Source: Methanomassiliicoccales archaeon
GTDB taxonomy: Archaea; Thermoplasmatota; Thermoplasmata; Methanomassiliicoccales; UBA472
Reading direction: 5' to 3'
DNA: 35,123 bases
Assembly: GCA_036504055.1 (NCBI GenBank)
Contig: DASXVU010000006.1
Span: 1 to 35,123, forward strand
Part shown: piece by piece, positions 702 through 10,445 of the stretch
How the letters are laid out: every line of letters starts with the position of its first letter
Position numbering within the stretch: the stretch's first letter is position 1
The notes under the pieces: model-generated
Seen by the model: only the letters and a program-made list of their open reading frames with translations
Databases searched by the model: none
Told to the model about the DNA's origin: nothing
Made by a program: the position numbers and the translations under genes

Positions 702-3700
702 ATGAAGAAGATCGCCATATTATTGCTGAGCCTAGCGTTGTTGCTAACTGGATTGTCCTTGATATCGGAGGAGGCGGACGCCGCCGAGGTCGGACCTCCC
801 GGAACACCGACGGGGGTTGGCGGCGTAGGATATATCGACGTCAGTTGGACGGCGGCACCGGGTACTCCGCTCTATTATTACATTTACAGCAACGTGGTCA
901 TGGGTACCGGTCCCGGCGAGGGGTCTTATATGAGCGGCTCGGCCCAAGGGAACCAACTGACCTATCAGCAGACACACAGATGCGAACCCGGCACACCCTC
1001 CCCCCTCACACCAGGCTATTCGATGTATTTCCAGGTCTCCGCATATTATGGCGGTTCGGAATTCCAGTATTCGGCCTGGGTGGGCCCGTTCACTTCGGTC
1101 GGTTATCCCGGCGCCCCCACGGCCCTGGCGTGCTCCAACGACGCTGGAAATGTCTCCCTTTCCTGGAGTGCACCTGCCTCTCTGGGCGGAGGCACCATAA
1201 GCAACTATACCATCTACCGTTCCACGACTTCGGGGACGGAGGTCGAGCTAGCAACCACTTCAGGCTCCGCCACATCCTTCACTGATCTCACGGTCGGAGG
1301 CGGCCAGACCTATTTCTACAAGGTCGCCGCCTTCAATGGCTACATAGGACCGAAATCCAATGAGGGTTCCGTCACAGTGCCCCCGGGAAAGCCTGCAGAG
1401 ACACAGAACCTAGTGTGCACTCCAGGAGAGAACAGCATCATGCTGACCTGGGACGCCCCAGGGAACAATGGCGGTTCGGTCATAACCCACTATAACATCT
1501 ATCGGTCGACCACTTCCGGGTCGGAATCGCTGATCGGCTCCACCACGGATGCCGGCCTGTTATATGAGGACGATACCGTCGAACTCGGTGAGACCTATTA
1601 CTATCAGGTGGCCGCCGTGAACTCCAATGGCGTTGGCCACAAATGTCCGGAGATATCGATAACCTTCGCCACCTTCCCAAGCGCCCCGCTAAACCTTCAG
1701 GGTGTCATGGGATCGGGGAAGATCACATTGACCTGGGAAGCCCCCGTCAGTGACGGAGGTATTCCCATCACATACTATGATATAAACCGTCTCAACGAGT
1801 CGGATGGATTGGGATGGGTAGAGCAATTCGACTACGTGGAGGGCGGAATACATAGCTATAACGATACCTATGTCCAGCTAGGCAACCGATACCAATATTC
1901 CGTTATGGCCTGCAACAACGTCACTTACCCATATATCGACGGGCCGAAGTCGAACACCATCACCGTCAATTATGCCCTGGCCCCATCCGAGCCGTTCACC
2001 GTGAACCTAGCCCCCGGAGCGGGCACGATACTGGTCTCATGGAACGCCCCCAACTCCACCGGCGGTTCCCCGATCGAGGCATACTGGATCTTCTGGGGGA
2101 CCTCCCCGGGGGCCCATACCAATTCTGCAAGCTCAGGATTGCTGACCAGCTACACCATCACGGGACTGGCCCGGAACACCACATACTACATCGCCGTCGC
2201 CGCCAACAATTCCGATGCACGGGGGCCATACAGTTCAGAGGTCCATGCGCAGACCCCCACCGTCCCGGGAGCGGTCGAGGACCTGATGATCATTTCGGAC
2301 GATGGGCAAACGACGCTGTCTTGGACACCGCCCTCATCCAATGGACGTAGCGGAATCACGTACTACTGCATCTACCGTGGCATCTCGGCCGGGAGCGAGA
2401 CCTATCTGGTCGGCAACACCGGCGCAAACTGCACCTGGATCGACCGTCCCCTGATCAACGGACACACGTACTATTACTCCGTTCATGCGCATAACGCCGT
2501 GGGAGCCGGATCGAACGTCACGTACTCGATCGTCCCGGCCACCACGCCTGGTTCCCCGACCAACATCCATGCCATCGGTGGTCTTTTCAAGATCACCGTC
2601 ACCTGGAACCAACCGGTTGCCATCGGCGGAGGCATTCTCAACTACCAGGTCTACCGCGGATCGACCTGGGGTGACGCAACTCTGCACACCACCGTAGGCA
2701 ATGTCACCACATACGACGATACCGTCGGCATGAATGAGACCTGGTCCTACTGGGTCCTCGGTCAGAACTGGGCCGGAGTGGGTTCGCGGTCAGGCCAGGC
2801 AATGGCAACCTCTTTCTCCCTTCCGAACGCACCGGCCATATCGGCGGTGACGTCCGGCAACGGATACGTGAACCTCGTCTGGTCGGCACCGTCATTCACC
2901 GGTAACACGCCTTTGACCGGCTACCAAGTGTACCGGTCCGCGTCCCCCGGGGCCGAATCGCTCCTATCCGATGCCGGCCTGGTACTTTCATATAATGACA
3001 CCACGGCGATAAATGGCAACACCTATTACTACGTCTTGAAAGCGGTCAACGTGGTCGGAGAAGGACTGCCATCGGACGAGGTCTCGGCGACCCTGCCCGG
3101 CTTGCCGACCGCTCCGCTCGATATTTGGGTCAACGGCGGGATAGGGCAGATATCACTGCAATGGAGCGCCCCTCTATACATGGGCGGCGGGATCCAGCAT
3201 TACCTGGTCTACCGTTCCCTGGACGGTGATGAGCGCCTCCTCGACACCATCGGCAACGTCACAAATTACGTCGATACGACCGCTGAGATCGGGGTCGTCT
3301 ACGGATACCGGATCGCAGCCTCAAATCTGGCGGGCGAAGGTCCGTTGTCAGTCCAGGTGCAGGAGTCCACCATTTACCAGCCTAACGCCCCCTGGATGTT
3401 CACCGCCACCCCAGAGCTCGGATATGTGCACCTGGCATGGGCCAGTTCCACCAATGATGGCAACTCGGTCCTTCTGGGATACCGTATCTACCGCGCCGTC
3501 GATGACGGGTCGAAAACACTCCTGAAGGAGGTGGCCGCGGAAAGGCCACGGGGCGGCTCTCTCATGTCCAGGCTGCTGACGTATGACGACCGCGCCGTGG
3601 TCAACGGCACAAATTACTCCTATGCGATCACATCGTTCAACGTCGGCTATGAAAGCCCGTTATCGGGGAACGCGACGGCAATTCCGTACAACACGCCCTC

Positions 3701-5198
3701 GGCGCCCACCGGAGTCACGGTTACTGGCGGGTTGAGGAACGTTACGATATCCTGGTCCGCACCGGCACACGACAACGGCGCCAGCGTCACCGGATACTGG
3801 ATCTCGTTCCAGGCGTATGCGGGCGGCGAGACATCGTACATCGATGCAGGGCTGGCCATGAGCCATCTGTTCCTCGGCCTGGAGAATGCCACAGCCTACT
3901 CTGTCAGGGTGCTGGCCTACAACATTGCCGGGAACGGATCGTACAGCGATATCATCTCGGGAATGACGTTCGGTCCGCCGTACGCTCCTACGATAAGCCT
4001 AACCTCGGGGGATGGATGGGTCAATGTATCGTGGTCGACTCCGTCCTCGGACTCCACTGTGCTGGGATACAAACTGTACCGCGGCATTGCAACCGGGGAG
4101 CTGACCCCGTACCAGACGCTCGGACCGCTCACGTTCTTCAATGATTCCTCATTGGTGAACGGTCTAGGATACATCTACAAGGTCCAGGCGATCAGTTCGT
4201 TGGGCCTCGGCGAAATGAGCGGAGAGCTCTCTGCCACTCCCTCTGCGGCTCCGACAGCGCCGACCGGCGTTATCGCGATCAGAGGGAACAGCAACGTCTC
4301 CCTGAGCTGGACCGCTCCGTCCAATGATGGCGGTTCTGTGATATCTGGCTATGCGTTGTATTGCGGCTCTGCGGAAGGGTCCGAGACATACCGTATTGCC
4401 GTGTCGGGCACAAAGTTCACCTTTGACGGTCTGACGAACGGCCTGCCCTACTTCTTCCGGGTGGCCGCGGTCAACGTCCGCGGAAACGGAACCTTGAGCT
4501 CGGTGGCGACCGCTACCCCTGCGACCGTCCCTGGGTTACCGGCCGATATTACGGCCACCCCGGCAGTGGGCAAAGTGGCGCTATCCTGGTCAGCTCCATT
4601 AGGCAATGGTGGCCTGACGATCGAAGGATACAACGTTTACCGCGGGACGACCGCAGGAACGATGGTTAAGATCGCGAATGTCACTCTGCTCAAGTATACG
4701 GATGAATCGGGTGTCCAGGGCATCGAATACTGGTATAAGGTCTCCTGCAGCAATGCCGAGGGTGAAGGTGCCGGTATCTCCGTGTCGGCCACCTCGTTGT
4801 ATCCGCCACCAGCCCCGACCAGCGTGAATATTGAGCGCAGCGGCAGCAGTGCGGTCATCAAATGGGACATGCCTGTCGCGAACGCCACGAGCGGTCCGGT
4901 GTCCAGCTTCGCCATCTACCGTATCGATGCGTCCGGCAATGAGGTCCTGATCGCCATGGTTAACGACAGTGAGGCAAGGACGTATACGGACACGACCGCT
5001 CCGGATGGAACTGCCAACTATAGGGTGCAGGCGGTCTACGGCGACCTGGCCGGGTTCGAAGCGTCCCAAAGCACCGGGGTCACGCTTCCGGCGAAGGCGG
5101 CAGGAACGGACCTGTTCCTTCCGATCGCGGCATTGTTGGCGTTCGCAGCGATCTTGGTGTTGTTCCTGGTAGCAAGGAGAAGGAAGAAGGAACAGTAA
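702..5198 (+). CDS. Secreted, membrane-anchored protein with about 15 fibronectin type III domains
   Basis: A 1498-residue surface protein. Residues 1-27 form a Sec signal peptide (MKKIAILLLSLALLL core, cleavage near ADA-A). The rest is a tandem array of about 15 FN3 domains of roughly 90 residues. Each has the pattern [V/I]xLxWxAP at strand B, YxVYR at strand C and YYYxVxAxNxxG at strands F/G, with Pro-rich linkers such as PGAPT or PSAPT. Many N-x-S/T sequons (NVT, NVS, NDT) suggest N-glycosylation. Residues about 1472-1491 are a transmembrane helix followed by RRRKKEQ, a stop-transfer anchor that leaves the array outside. A GAGGT Shine-Dalgarno 6 nt before the ATG supports the start. There is no enzyme domain, so adhesion or cell-surface matrix is the likely role; the ligand is unknown. 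The gene is monocistronic, with a T-tract terminator. Confidence 0.9.
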   Translation: MKKIAILLLSLALLLTGLSLISEEADAAEVGPPGTPTGVGGVGYIDVSWTAAPGTPLYYYIYSNVVMGTGPGEGSYMSGSAQGNQLTYQQTHRCEPGTPSPLTPGYSMYFQVSAYYGGSEFQYSAWVGPFTSVGYPGAPTALACSNDAGNVSLSWSAPASLGGGTISNYTIYRSTTSGTEVELATTSGSATSFTDLTVGGGQTYFYKVAAFNGYIGPKSNEGSVTVPPGKPAETQNLVCTPGENSIMLTWDAPGNNGGSVITHYNIYRSTTSGSESLIGSTTDAGLLYEDDTVELGETYYYQVAAVNSNGVGHKCPEISITFATFPSAPLNLQGVMGSGKITLTWEAPVSDGGIPITYYDINRLNESDGLGWVEQFDYVEGGIHSYNDTYVQLGNRYQYSVMACNNVTYPYIDGPKSNTITVNYALAPSEPFTVNLAPGAGTILVSWNAPNSTGGSPIEAYWIFWGTSPGAHTNSASSGLLTSYTITGLARNTTYYIAVAANNSDARGPYSSEVHAQTPTVPGAVEDLMIISDDGQTTLSWTPPSSNGRSGITYYCIYRGISAGSETYLVGNTGANCTWIDRPLINGHTYYYSVHAHNAVGAGSNVTYSIVPATTPGSPTNIHAIGGLFKITVTWNQPVAIGGGILNYQVYRGSTWGDATLHTTVGNVTTYDDTVGMNETWSYWVLGQNWAGVGSRSGQAMATSFSLPNAPAISAVTSGNGYVNLVWSAPSFTGNTPLTGYQVYRSASPGAESLLSDAGLVLSYNDTTAINGNTYYYVLKAVNVVGEGLPSDEVSATLPGLPTAPLDIWVNGGIGQISLQWSAPLYMGGGIQHYLVYRSLDGDERLLDTIGNVTNYVDTTAEIGVVYGYRIAASNLAGEGPLSVQVQESTIYQPNAPWMFTATPELGYVHLAWASSTNDGNSVLLGYRIYRAVDDGSKTLLKEVAAERPRGGSLMSRLLTYDDRAVVNGTNYSYAITSFNVGYESPLSGNATAIPYNTPSAPTGVTVTGGLRNVTISWSAPAHDNGASVTGYWISFQAYAGGETSYIDAGLAMSHLFLGLENATAYSVRVLAYNIAGNGSYSDIISGMTFGPPYAPTISLTSGDGWVNVSWSTPSSDSTVLGYKLYRGIATGELTPYQTLGPLTFFNDSSLVNGLGYIYKVQAISSLGLGEMSGELSATPSAAPTAPTGVIAIRGNSNVSLSWTAPSNDGGSVISGYALYCGSAEGSETYRIAVSGTKFTFDGLTNGLPYFFRVAAVNVRGNGTLSSVATATPATVPGLPADITATPAVGKVALSWSAPLGNGGLTIEGYNVYRGTTAGTMVKIANVTLLKYTDESGVQGIEYWYKVSCSNAEGEGAGISVSATSLYPPPAPTSVNIERSGSSAVIKWDMPVANATSGPVSSFAIYRIDASGNEVLIAMVNDSEARTYTDTTAPDGTANYRVQAVYGDLAGFEASQSTGVTLPAKAAGTDLFLPIAALLAFAAILVLFLVARRRKKEQ

Positions 5199-5770: not shown

Positions 5771-7297
5771 ATGTCAAAGATCAATTTGGACACGACGACA
5801 GTGGAAAGTCGAGAGCAGCGGTTGGGCACAGTTATTAGTTGGAGCGGATCGGCATCTGACCTTGTCAAGGAATCGCGCCGTTCACAAAAGTGTGATGGGA
5901 ATGGAAAGAGGTGCAGCCTCTGCGATTACAAAGGACCGTTCACTCAAGGTTCGACATGCAGCGAACAGATGGTCGAGTGCCAGGCGGGGAATGTAAGAGG
6001 GGCTGTGCTGATACAGCATGCGCCGATAGGGTGCGCCACCTCACAAAGCGTGTTCAACTCGATCTACAGAAATGGTCTGGCAATAAGAGGGTTGCCAGTT
6101 GAGAACGTGAATATCGTCTGTACCAACATGGACGAGGGCGATGTCGTATTTGGAGGATCGGCTAAGCTCCGGGGAACGGTCGAGGATGTATGGGACCACT
6201 ATCACCCAAAAGCGATATTCATCGGGACCTCATGTGCCTCTGGCATTATCGGAGACGATGTGGATAGCGTCGCATCGGAATACACGAAAAGTCTTGGAAT
6301 CCCGGTTATGCCCCTCTATTGCGAAGGATTCAGGTCCAAACACTGGAGCACAGGCTTCGATGCCACGCAGCACGGGATATTGAGGCAGATCGTGACCAGA
6401 GATCCGAAGAGGAAGCAGGAGGACCTAGTCAACGTGATCAACCTTTGGGGGTCGGACGTTTTCTCACCCATGCTCAAGAACCTCAACCTGCGCGTCAATT
6501 ACGTGGTGGATATGGCGACCGTCGAGGAACTTGCCCAAATGTCAGAGGCAGCCGCCACGGTGGGATTCTGCAACACGCTTGGCACATATCTTGGGGAGGG
6601 CCTCGAACAGAGCTTTGGGATTCCATATCTCAAGTCACCTCAACCCTACGGCATAGCCGGAACGGATGCCTGGATCAGAGGTCTTGCCGAGCTGACGCAC
6701 CGGGAGAAATTGGCCGAGGAGTACATCGCGAGAGAACATGAGCGGGTGAAACCCAAGATTGCCGAATTGAAGAAGAAGCTGGTGGATGTCAAGGGATTGG
6801 TCGCCACGGGGTCCGCGTATTCCCATGGCCTCATCTCCGTCCTGAAGGAACTTGACATACAGGTCGACGGCTCCTTGGTGTTCCATCATGATCCGATATA
6901 CGACAGCGGCGATCCACAACAGGATTCCTTGGCACAGCTGGTGAAAAATTACGGCGACGTGCCGAACTTCCTGGTGAGCCTGAGGCAGCCGTATCAGTTC
7001 TATACGCTCCTAAAGAAGGTCAACCCCGATTTCATTTTGATCAGGCACAACGGATTGGCGCCCACGGCCTCCCGCTTGGGGATACCGGCCGCACCATTGG
7101 GAGACGAGCATGTAGCGGTCGGCTATGAAGGCATCCTGAATCTGGGAAACATCGTGCTAGAGATATTGAAACGGAAGACCTTCCATAAGGACGTTGCCAA
7201 ACATACGATCTCTCCCTATTCGAAATGGTGGCTGGAGCAGACGGACCCGAACATCATGGCAAAACATCCGGAGATAATCTGGGAGGGGTCACAGTGA
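5771..7297 (+). CDS. Nitrogenase-like oxidoreductase, alpha (NifD-like) subunit
   Basis: A 508-residue member of the nitrogenase component 1 superfamily. Cys63, Cys88 (HAPIGC) and Cys155 (GTSCASGIIGDD) sit almost exactly where NifD has its P-cluster ligands (62, 88, 154). Cys267 (GFCNTLGTYLGEG) and His447 (GDEHVAVGYEG) fit the two NifD cofactor ligands (275, 442). The stretch after CEGFR (residues 184-188) differs: NifD has a Gln and a His (191, 195) over the cofactor, here it reads SKHWSTGFDATQHG with an insertion. This argues against an ordinary N2-fixing enzyme. Extra cysteines at 41, 48 and 51 lie before the first ligand. It is too long for CfbD of F430 synthesis. A reductase such as methylthio-alkane reductase (MarD) is possible but unproven. 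It overlaps the beta gene by 4 nt. No NifH-type reductase gene is in the window. Confidence 0.88.
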   Translation: MSKINLDTTTVESREQRLGTVISWSGSASDLVKESRRSQKCDGNGKRCSLCDYKGPFTQGSTCSEQMVECQAGNVRGAVLIQHAPIGCATSQSVFNSIYRNGLAIRGLPVENVNIVCTNMDEGDVVFGGSAKLRGTVEDVWDHYHPKAIFIGTSCASGIIGDDVDSVASEYTKSLGIPVMPLYCEGFRSKHWSTGFDATQHGILRQIVTRDPKRKQEDLVNVINLWGSDVFSPMLKNLNLRVNYVVDMATVEELAQMSEAAATVGFCNTLGTYLGEGLEQSFGIPYLKSPQPYGIAGTDAWIRGLAELTHREKLAEEYIAREHERVKPKIAELKKKLVDVKGLVATGSAYSHGLISVLKELDIQVDGSLVFHHDPIYDSGDPQQDSLAQLVKNYGDVPNFLVSLRQPYQFYTLLKKVNPDFILIRHNGLAPTASRLGIPAAPLGDEHVAVGYEGILNLGNIVLEILKRKTFHKDVAKHTISPYSKWWLEQTDPNIMAKHPEIIWEGSQ

Positions 7298-8637
7298 CCA
7301 AGTAGCCGAACGCAAGGTCGGATTCGATAAGCCAGGTCAGATACGGATGTGCATTGGGAGCGATGTATTCCGTGGTGGCTATCCCCGGGGTGGTGCCCAT
7401 AGCGGACTCCGGTCCCGGATGCGCTGACAAACAGTATACCAGTCTCGCGCACATGAGCGGGTACCAGGGGAGCGGGCGCTTCGGCGGGGCCATTCCACCG
7501 AGCGTTAACGCGACGCAGGAGGAGGTCGTCTTCGGAGGTGCGGAGAAACTAAGGCAATTGATCCAGGCATCCGTCAAGGTATTGGACGGAGATCTCTACG
7601 TCGTTACCACCGGGTGCATCGCCGACATCGTCGGTGATGATGTCGGGGCAGTGGTCGAGAAGTTCCAGAAAAAAGGAGTTCCGGTGGTATATGCGGCGAC
7701 AGGCGGATTCAAAGGGAACAACTTCATCGGCCACGAGTCGATAGCAAAGGCCATCATCGACCAGTATGTCGGAGACTATAGTGGGGAGAGAGAACAGGGA
7801 CTTGTCAATGTGTGGGCGGTGTTGCCCTATCAGGATGTGCACTGGAGAGGGGACCTCGCAGAGATAAAGAGGATACTGGAAGGTATCGGGCTCAAGGTCA
7901 ACATTTTGTTCGGCAACAGCTGCAATGGCGTTTCCGAATGGAGGTCGATACCACGCGCCCAGTTCAACCTGGTGATATCCTCCTGGTATGGGCTCTCGGT
8001 GGCGGAGCACCTCAATGAGAAATATGGACAGCCATATCTGCACATCCCATCGATACCGATCGGGTCGTTGGAGTCAAGGAAATTCCTGGAGACGGTCTCC
8101 GAGTTCGCTGGTCTTGACCCGAAACGGACCGAGGAGTTCGTCACCTCCGAGGAAACTGAGTTCTACAAGTACCTGGAGCAGTTCTCCGATTTCTATTCGG
8201 AGTACTGGTGGGGAATCCCGTCCAGATTTGCCGTGGTCACGGACAGCTCATATGGATTGGCCATAACCAGGTTCGCGGTCAATCAGCTCGGCCTCATACC
8301 ATCTTTGGTCATCGCCACGGAAAATCCCCCGGAGGAATACCGTGAGATGATCAGCAATGAATTCAGACACATCTCGGATGACATCTCCCTGGACCTCAAG
8401 TTCATCGAGGACGGTTATCACATATCGAGTGAACTGAAGAACTCGGCTGAGAAACCGGCCATGATCTTCGGAACGACCTGGGACAGGTACGTAGCAAAGG
8501 AGCTGAAGGCCACCGTGGTGGAGGTCAGCTTCCCCGCTTCATATGAGGTGGTACTGTCCGGTTCGTACGTTGGATACCGAGGCGCGTTGCTGTTCATGGA
8601 GAAGATATTCACAACTGCCATAAGTGGGAGCGCGTGA
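7294..8637 (+). CDS. Nitrogenase-like oxidoreductase, beta (NifK-like) subunit, with in-frame TAG at codon 4
   Basis: The partner of the alpha subunit, 447 codons if read from GTG 7294. P-cluster-type cysteines are Cys19 (RYGCALGAM), Cys43 (SGPGCADK) and Cys108 (VTTGCIADIVGDD), spaced much like Cys70/95/153 of NifK. The start is a puzzle. The only canonical start after the TAG at 7303-7305 is a TTG at 7354; it would remove Cys19 (codon 7348-7350) and has no good Shine-Dalgarno. The GTG at 7294 overlaps the alpha stop as GTGA and follows GGGAGGGG (7281-7288) at ideal spacing, but reads GTG ACC AAG TAG CCG. Either the TAG is decoded (pyrrolysine or a suppressor), or a rare codon such as ATA 7327 starts translation, or the sequence has a mutation or error here. 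The family is firm; the first 20 codons are uncertain. Confidence 0.8.
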
Positions 8638-9002: not shown

Positions 9003-9078
9003 TGGTGGGTCTGCCCGGATTTGAACCGGGGGCTATAGGTCCCGAACCTACAATGTTACCAAGCTACACCACAGACCC
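9003..9078 (-). tRNA. tRNA-Pro (anticodon CGG), CCA encoded
   Basis: A full cloverleaf on the minus strand. The acceptor GGGTCTG pairs with CAGACCC; the D arm is GTGT/ACAT; the anticodon arm GTAGG-TTCGGGA-CCTAT gives anticodon CGG, reading CCG proline codons; the T arm is CCCGG-TTCAAAT-CCGGG; the discriminator is A. The 3' CCA is part of the gene. There is no intron. Confidence 0.95.
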
Positions 9079-9105
9079 AGTGGGATAATGGGGAATAGAT
9101 ACGAG

Positions 9106-9114
9106 TATTAAAAA
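9106..9114 (-). promoter_or_regulatory. TATA box of tRNA-Pro, overlapping the tnpB stop codon
   Basis: TTTTTAATA on the minus strand is centred about 32 bp upstream of the tRNA 5' end, suited to a TATA element with a short 5' leader. The tnpB TAA (9110-9108) lies inside it. Confidence 0.55.
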
Positions 9115-10445
9115 CCTATCTGCCTCTCCTCCATTTCCCTCTTGCTTGGTTTATATCCTCCGAGCCTTGTTCCCGTCCAACCACACTCAAGTGTGAAAGC
9201 TAAGGTTGATCCAAAGGATTTTCCTTTCAACGAGTGCCAGTTGTCTGCCGTGGCGATTGCCCGAGTTTCAGGTGGCATTACAGACTTGCAACTAAGCTCC
9301 TCCTCTTCCTCGGGTCCCCGAATAGACCCGGATTCACCGCTTGTCGCATTTGGCTTACTGGCTTGTAGCCTACCCAATTCAGATATACCGATTTGGGCGA
9401 TGTTCCTGGCTGCATTCAGATCCGCATCCATCTGAAAGCTGCACTCAACGCACTTGAAGTTAGGGCCTTTTCGACTCTTACGGTTGGTATTTCCGCATTT
9501 TGAACATTTCTGGGATGTGAACATTCCGTTCACCACTAGAACTTCTTTACCCAGCTCCTCGGCCTTATACTCAATATCTTTCTGTAACTCCCAATATGGC
9601 CATACCGTCAGATCGCGGCGTACTTGCCATATTGGGGAACGTTTAGATCTTATGCCGGTCAAGTCTTCCAGCACGAATGTTCCAAAGGGCATCGATACTA
9701 TCTGCTTTGCGACGCGGTGGTTCTCACAAGCAACGAACCGTCTTTCTCTTCCTGCCATTTTCTTGAGTTTTCTCTTTGCAGAATGAGTGCCTATTGCTTG
9801 CAATTTCGCCCTCAGATAGGCGAATTTTCCTTTGACCCGTTTGACTTCGCTGGAGTTGAAAAACTTGTTATTCGAACATACGGCCAGGTTACGAAGGCCT
9901 CTGTCGATTCCTAAGACTCCTTGTTCCGTTGCCTCCGGAATTTCATTGTTCTCGAGGACTACGTGGAGGTAGAAGTTATTGGATTTATTTTCGAACCTCA
10001 GATAGGTACACCTAACCTGCCAACCAAGGTATCTTGCAAAATGTTTTGGGACCTTGAAAGAAGCCAAGACCCGAAATTCAAATGCCTGAATAGAAGCGTA
10101 TCCGCTCTCCAGATAGACGCTTGCCCCCCTCCACGGGTACCTAATTGAGGACAGGGGGGATTTCTTTGGTAAGACCTCGAATTTCGTGCTCTTCAATGCT
10201 TCGGTGGCCATGAAGCAAGCTGTCTGGACCATTGAAGCAGGCAGGCCAGGAAGGTTCTCCCTTATTTTGCTATACATAGCCATCGAGTTACCGATCTTGC
10301 TAGCTTCCTTATTTTCGAACCCATATTCCGCAGACATGTTGTAGGCCTGGGCGAACATCTGCATCGTTTTCAGCAACCTCGCCTTGTCCTCCTCGAAGCG
10401 AGGGTTGATCCGCAAAGTTATGGTCCGATACACTTCCAACCTCAA
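9108..10445 (-). CDS. tnpB: TnpB RNA-guided endonuclease of an IS200/IS605-family element
   Basis: A 445-residue TnpB (OrfB), the RNA-guided DNA nuclease ancestral to Cas12, which cuts sites matching the guide of its omega RNA. The RuvC-like site looks intact: Asp in GIDRG, Glu in LEDLTGI and Asp in DADLNAARNI. A four-cysteine zinc finger (CSKCG...CVEC) lies before the last Asp. The start is TTG at 10445; no ATG occurs near the N-terminus. No TnpA transposase is adjacent, so the element is a stand-alone TnpB unit, moved in trans or retained for another role. The last 95 residues are low-complexity and unlike the nuclease core, as expected where coding sequence overlaps the omega RNA. The gene ends 30 bp upstream of tRNA-Pro. 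GC is lower than in its neighbours, consistent with transfer. Confidence 0.92.
   Translation of the reverse strand: MRLEVYRTITLRINPRFEEDKARLLKTMQMFAQAYNMSAEYGFENKEASKIGNSMAMYSKIRENLPGLPASMVQTACFMATEALKSTKFEVLPKKSPLSSIRYPWRGASVYLESGYASIQAFEFRVLASFKVPKHFARYLGWQVRCTYLRFENKSNNFYLHVVLENNEIPEATEQGVLGIDRGLRNLAVCSNNKFFNSSEVKRVKGKFAYLRAKLQAIGTHSAKRKLKKMAGRERRFVACENHRVAKQIVSMPFGTFVLEDLTGIRSKRSPIWQVRRDLTVWPYWELQKDIEYKAEELGKEVLVVNGMFTSQKCSKCGNTNRKSRKGPNFKCVECSFQMDADLNAARNIAQIGISELGRLQASKPNATSGESGSIRGPEEEEELSCKSVMPPETRAIATADNWHSLKGKSFGSTLAFTLECGWTGTRLGGYKPSKREMEERQIGF
9110..9240 (-). ncRNA. Candidate omega RNA (reRNA) region overlapping the 3' end of tnpB
   Basis: In IS200/IS605 elements the guide RNA scaffold overlaps the tnpB 3' end. 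Two compact hairpins lie here: CACAC/GTGTG with a 4-nt loop (9182-9195) and AAAGGA/TCCTTT with a 3-nt loop (9213-9227). The exact ends and the guide cannot be fixed from this copy alone. Confidence 0.3.

Follow-up and report, generated by a model that had tools for sequence, protein, structure and literature searches.

An in-frame amber codon at codon 4 of an archaeal methylthio-alkane reductase gene: a probable pyrrolysine site

The marDK locus

The DNA analysed here, referred to as the window, is a stretch of 35,123 nucleotides corresponding to contig 6 of a Methanomassiliicoccales draft genome (2.66 Mb in 49 contigs). The source genome carries mcrA and comes from the same order as Candidatus (Ca.) Methanoplasma. 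On the plus strand of the window lie two overlapping genes that we identify from their sequences as marD and marK, encoding the alpha and beta subunits of a methylthio-alkane reductase: marD occupies positions 5771-7297 (508 amino acids), and marK positions 7294-8637, with a GTG start, 447 codons including an amber codon, and a TGA stop. Directly upstream of marD, positions 702-5198 encode a 1498-residue protein with many fibronectin type III domains and an apparent C-terminal membrane anchor. Directly behind the pair, at 9003-10445, a tRNA-Pro (CGG) gene stands beside a minus-strand TnpB/Cas12f-like gene, possibly a mobile element.

From position 7294 onward the window reads GTG ACC AAG TAG CCG AAC GCA AGG TCG GAT TCG ATA AGC CAG GTC AGA TAC GGA TGT GCA TTG. 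An earlier, sequence-only reading had placed an in-frame TAG at codon 4 of this frame and had noted that the GTG overlaps the alpha-subunit stop as GTGA; the TAG is indeed found at 7303-7305, and the TGA of marD at 7295-7297. Past the TAG, the frame stays open for 443 codons, down to the TGA at 8635-8637. The first standard start after the TAG is, as had been proposed, the TTG at 7354-7356, with no in-frame ATG, GTG or TTG in between. The sole near-standard start located between the TAG and the codon of the first P-cluster cysteine (Cys19, 7348-7350) is the ATA of codon 12 (7327-7329), preceded by a weak AGGT at 7314-7317.

The Shine-Dalgarno sequence of the GTG had been described as near-ideal. 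A GGAGGGG motif is present at 7282-7288, but the match by itself is not strong: the window holds one GGAGG-spacer-GTG match, where chance alone predicts 0.58. The GTG start is supported by the fact that orthologues begin at the same codon, rather than by the Shine-Dalgarno match. Local RNA folding around the TAG gave a z-score of -2.0. A structural model of MarK predicted with 8 sequences had low confidence (mean pLDDT 61, with residues 1-23 below 50) and was not used as evidence.

Identity of the two subunits

The best solved relative of the putative MarK is 9d9u_C (phmmer E-value 5e-185, over residues 5-447), and MarD aligns with 9fmg_A (phmmer E-value 1.9e-230). The chains of 9fmg and 9d9u are titled only 'Nitrogenase'; we read both entries as structures of the Rhodospirillum (R.) rubrum methylthio-alkane reductase, since the residue numbers published for that enzyme (PMC12552129) fit the chains exactly. 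Both window proteins match the Oxidored_nitro family (PF00148), and none of the NCBIfam nitrogenase models reaches its cut-off for either of them. A true NifK was rejected for the beta subunit given its far higher MarK score. The previous label of a nitrogenase-like beta subunit can be made more precise: MarK of methylthio-alkane reductase.

The metal ligands are conserved in both subunits. In R. rubrum numbering (PMC12552129), MarD retains the P-cluster ligands Cys66, Cys91 and Cys158, as well as the [Fe8S9C] ligands Cys270 and His429, aligned as GFC and IRHNGL, the histidine lying in a MarD-specific loop. In MarK, Cys19, Cys43 (codon at 7420-7422) and Cys108 (7615-7617) align with the P-cluster ligands Cys32, Cys56 and Cys121 of 9d9u_C. 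All eight ligands are therefore kept, and marD and the other 446 codons of marK are intact. From a standard start codon, Cys19, which is invariant in 8 aligned MarK sequences, can be included only if translation passes through codon 4; a start at TTG 7354 would lose this P-cluster ligand, as had been claimed. The spacing of 24 residues between Cys19 and Cys43 was also correctly noted, but NifK, with 25, is not the closest reference: the corresponding Cys32 and Cys56 of MarK are also 24 apart. The predicted activity of the MarDK class is the release of methanethiol and a hydrocarbon from methylthio compounds.

Reductase partner and nitrogen genes

The source genome has no separate marH, and none adjoins marDK; a linked marH is usual for such pairs, not defining. 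The only full-length NifH-family genes in the genome are nifH (contig 30) and cfbC (contig 12). A MarH gene lies upstream of marDK in the four Ca. Methanoplasma loci tested (L059-L062), and its product is 48-49% identical to the NifH of the source genome. The mar loci of Clostridium and Selenomonas, on the other hand, hold a NifH that is 77-80% identical to it, which suggests that the genome's own NifH could serve MarDK.

The nif operon (contig 30, 37105-44497) comprises nifH, two nifI-like genes, nifD, nifK, nifE and nifN, followed by ABC transporter genes; nifB and cfbCD are also present in the genome. This apparently complete operon suggests that the organism may fix nitrogen.

Codon 4 in archaeal orthologues

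We compared codon 4 with that of five Ca. Methanoplasma MarK genes, L059-L062 (66-67% identity to the window protein) and L098 (63%); L095, L096, L097 and L006 duplicate L059, L062, L060 and L061, respectively. In all five the start aligns with codon 1 of the window gene. Their N-termini read MTKQ in four cases and MTQH in one, codon 4 being CAG in three genes, CAA in one and CAT in one (Gln in four, His in one). Over the first four codons, GTG ACC AAG CAG in L060 and GTG ACC AAG TAG in the window are one base apart, and a single C-to-T change would explain the TAG. As glutamine is found in four of the five archaeal orthologues, the direction of change was likely from CAG to TAG. No other species among the orthologues found carries a TAG at codon 4 of marK.

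Where the sequence is readable, the orthologous marK starts overlap or abut the end of marD. At codon 7, where the window has GCA, the Ca. Methanoplasma genes possess an additional ATG. Sequence on both sides of the TAG aligns with the orthologues, although ahead of it this amounts to only three codons (MTK), against 443 residues after it. Every MarK found, bacterial ones included, has a variable tail ahead of the motif S-I-x-x-x-R-Y/F-x-C, and in no case does the start lie past codon 4 but ahead of the cysteine. Two Ca. Methanoplasma genomes also hold a second, more distant marK copy (L099 and L100, 62% identity).

Pyrrolysine genes and the use of TAG

The sequence-only reading had made its interpretation depend on a pyrrolysine system, and we found one: pylT, pylS, pylB, pylC and pylD stand in a row on contig 31. 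PylS scores 292 bits (cut-off 178), and PylB, PylC and PylD score 463, 360 and 191 bits, each above its cut-off. Directly upstream of pylS is a CUA tRNA gene with a 7/7 acceptor stem, a 5/5 T-arm, an imperfect anticodon stem, a 3-base D-loop and a CAG variable loop, features that match those described for the tRNA-Pyl of Methanomassiliicoccales (PMC3941956). This gene was checked by hand: ARAGORN missed it and Rfam gave a weak tRNA-Sec match, as can be expected from the odd shape of the tRNA. A single in-frame TAG is present in each of two mtmB copies and in mtbB; no mttB was found in the source genome. With a pyl cassette and amber-bearing mtmB and mtbB genes, amber decoding is expected to operate in this cell. 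In the mtbB gene on contig 31 both meanings of TAG apparently occur together, as pyrrolysine at codon 355 and as the stop at codon 468.

TAG is also an ordinary stop in this organism. Across 755 kb sampled from the genome and processed with a simple codon-usage gene finder, the stops of 566 predicted genes were TGA (65%), TAG (18%, 101 genes) and TAA (17%). In the window itself, where 6 of 26 complete genes had been said to end in TAG, the count is similar, with 6 credible cases among about 22 predicted genes. An archaeal flagellin-like gene of the window (PF01917; 27892-28512, minus strand) ends in TAG. Within the 755 kb sample, nearby backup stops are not in excess behind TAG stops, and coding-like extensions behind TAG show no excess over TAA and TGA beyond the known mtmB genes. 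Full reassignment of TAG to pyrrolysine was rejected in view of the 101 genes that end in it. Archaea that read all TAG codons as pyrrolysine have reportedly been described; the source genome is not of that kind.

Among relatives, TAG makes up 1.6% of stops in Ca. M. alvus, which has 16 extra putative pyrrolysine proteins, and 11.3% in M. luminyensis, where no additional pyrrolysine gene was found (PMC4153887). With 18%, the source genome resembles M. luminyensis, which makes the marK case more unusual and a simple nonsense mutation more credible. A TAG share of this size leaves real doubt as to the efficiency of decoding.

Interpretation of the amber codon

The best explanation, to which we assign a probability of roughly 0.6, is that the TAG of marK is read as pyrrolysine at a tolerant, variable N-terminal site. 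Translation would begin at GTG 7294, an ancestral CAG (Gln) at codon 4 having mutated to TAG in this lineage, and the Pyl-tRNA(CUA) from the contig 31 cassette would insert pyrrolysine at the UAG, so that MarK is made in full and retains its first P-cluster cysteine. The residue at codon 4 is probably tolerated and not catalytic, since the site falls in the variable N-terminal tail. As UAG also ends many genes in the organism, some ribosomes would probably still terminate at codon 4, and the amount of MarK may for this reason depend on the supply of pyrrolysine. The earlier proposal of a possibly decoded amber codon, a functional protein seeming to need either read-through of the TAG or a non-standard start, is thus supported, decoding being deduced from the pyl genes, the amber codons of the methylamine methyltransferases, the sequence change and the conserved start. 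Of the outcomes named in advance as refuting it, neither a genome devoid of pyl genes nor homologues that start past the TAG was observed.

A different outcome of the same C-to-T change would be a recent nonsense mutation, marK being on its way to a pseudogene and yielding no useful MarK. The TAG is unique to the source genome among the species found and is a common stop there, and a marDK pair standing alone, with neither marH nor marB adjoining, could conceivably be decaying. The rest of marD and marK is however intact, with all metal ligands kept; the dN between the window marK and its orthologues is about 0.26 against a near-saturated dS, a comparison that is blind to very recent change; and the lone pair need not lack a reductase if NifH can serve it, as the Clostridium and Selenomonas loci suggest. 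We consider such an inactivation unlikely.

We give still less credence to a consensus or assembly error with CAG as the true codon at 7303-7305. The TAG is a single C/T difference away from the commonest orthologue codon and the assembly is a 49-contig draft, but an error would have had to hit by chance a genome equipped to decode TAG, and few genes acquire a stop through a single-base consensus error. The least probable explanation is that a non-standard codon past the TAG, most plausibly ATA 7327, serves as the start after termination or re-initiation at the TAG: Cys19 would be kept without pyrrolysine, the ATA is in frame with an AGGT nine bases upstream and the N-terminal tail varies among orthologues, but AUA is a very weak start codon, the ancestral GTG and its Shine-Dalgarno are retained, and every orthologue starts well ahead of the cysteine, either at the codon aligned with GTG 7294 or further upstream.

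If the TAG is decoded as pyrrolysine, codon 4 might further act as a switch that restricts MarK synthesis to times of pyrrolysine-system activity. We hold this to be unlikely; if true, it would tie methylated-sulfur reduction and C-S cleavage to methylamine use, TAG otherwise being a normal stop.

Relation to known systems and significance

Pyrrolysine proteins other than methylamine methyltransferases have been proposed in Methanomassiliicoccales: in the rumen strain ISO4-H5, amber codons lie inside 46 genes altogether, one of them a predicted nitrogenase gene, AR505_1289 (PMC5011839). The marK gene shares with these cases an amber codon in an otherwise intact gene and a genome with pylTSBCD and, with several of them, a sense codon at the same site in relatives. 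It differs from the Ca. M. alvus and ISO4-H5 proteins in the position of the amber, at codon 4, and in the gene concerned, and from Ca. M. alvus in a TAG stop share that is far higher and exceeds even that of M. luminyensis. In another genome (L017, minus strand), a 737-codon fused NifH-like/NifD-like frame has one in-frame TAG, at codon 499, with clear homology on both sides.

The window genes resemble R. rubrum MarHDK over the whole length of both subunits and keep every cluster ligand, but here the host is an archaeon, codon 4 is amber, and marDK lacks adjoining marB and marH. The Ca. Methanoplasma genes share the aligned marK start and differ in having CAG, CAA or CAT at codon 4, the spare ATG at codon 7 and, in L059-L062, marH upstream.

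Methylthio-alkane reductase genes thus occur in methanogenic archaea. A gene caller would truncate MarK in such a genome and lose a P-cluster ligand. Placed near the start of a metalloenzyme gene, in a genome in which about 18% of sampled genes end in TAG, the marK amber offers a clean natural test of how a methanogen deals with a codon that can signal either termination or pyrrolysine.
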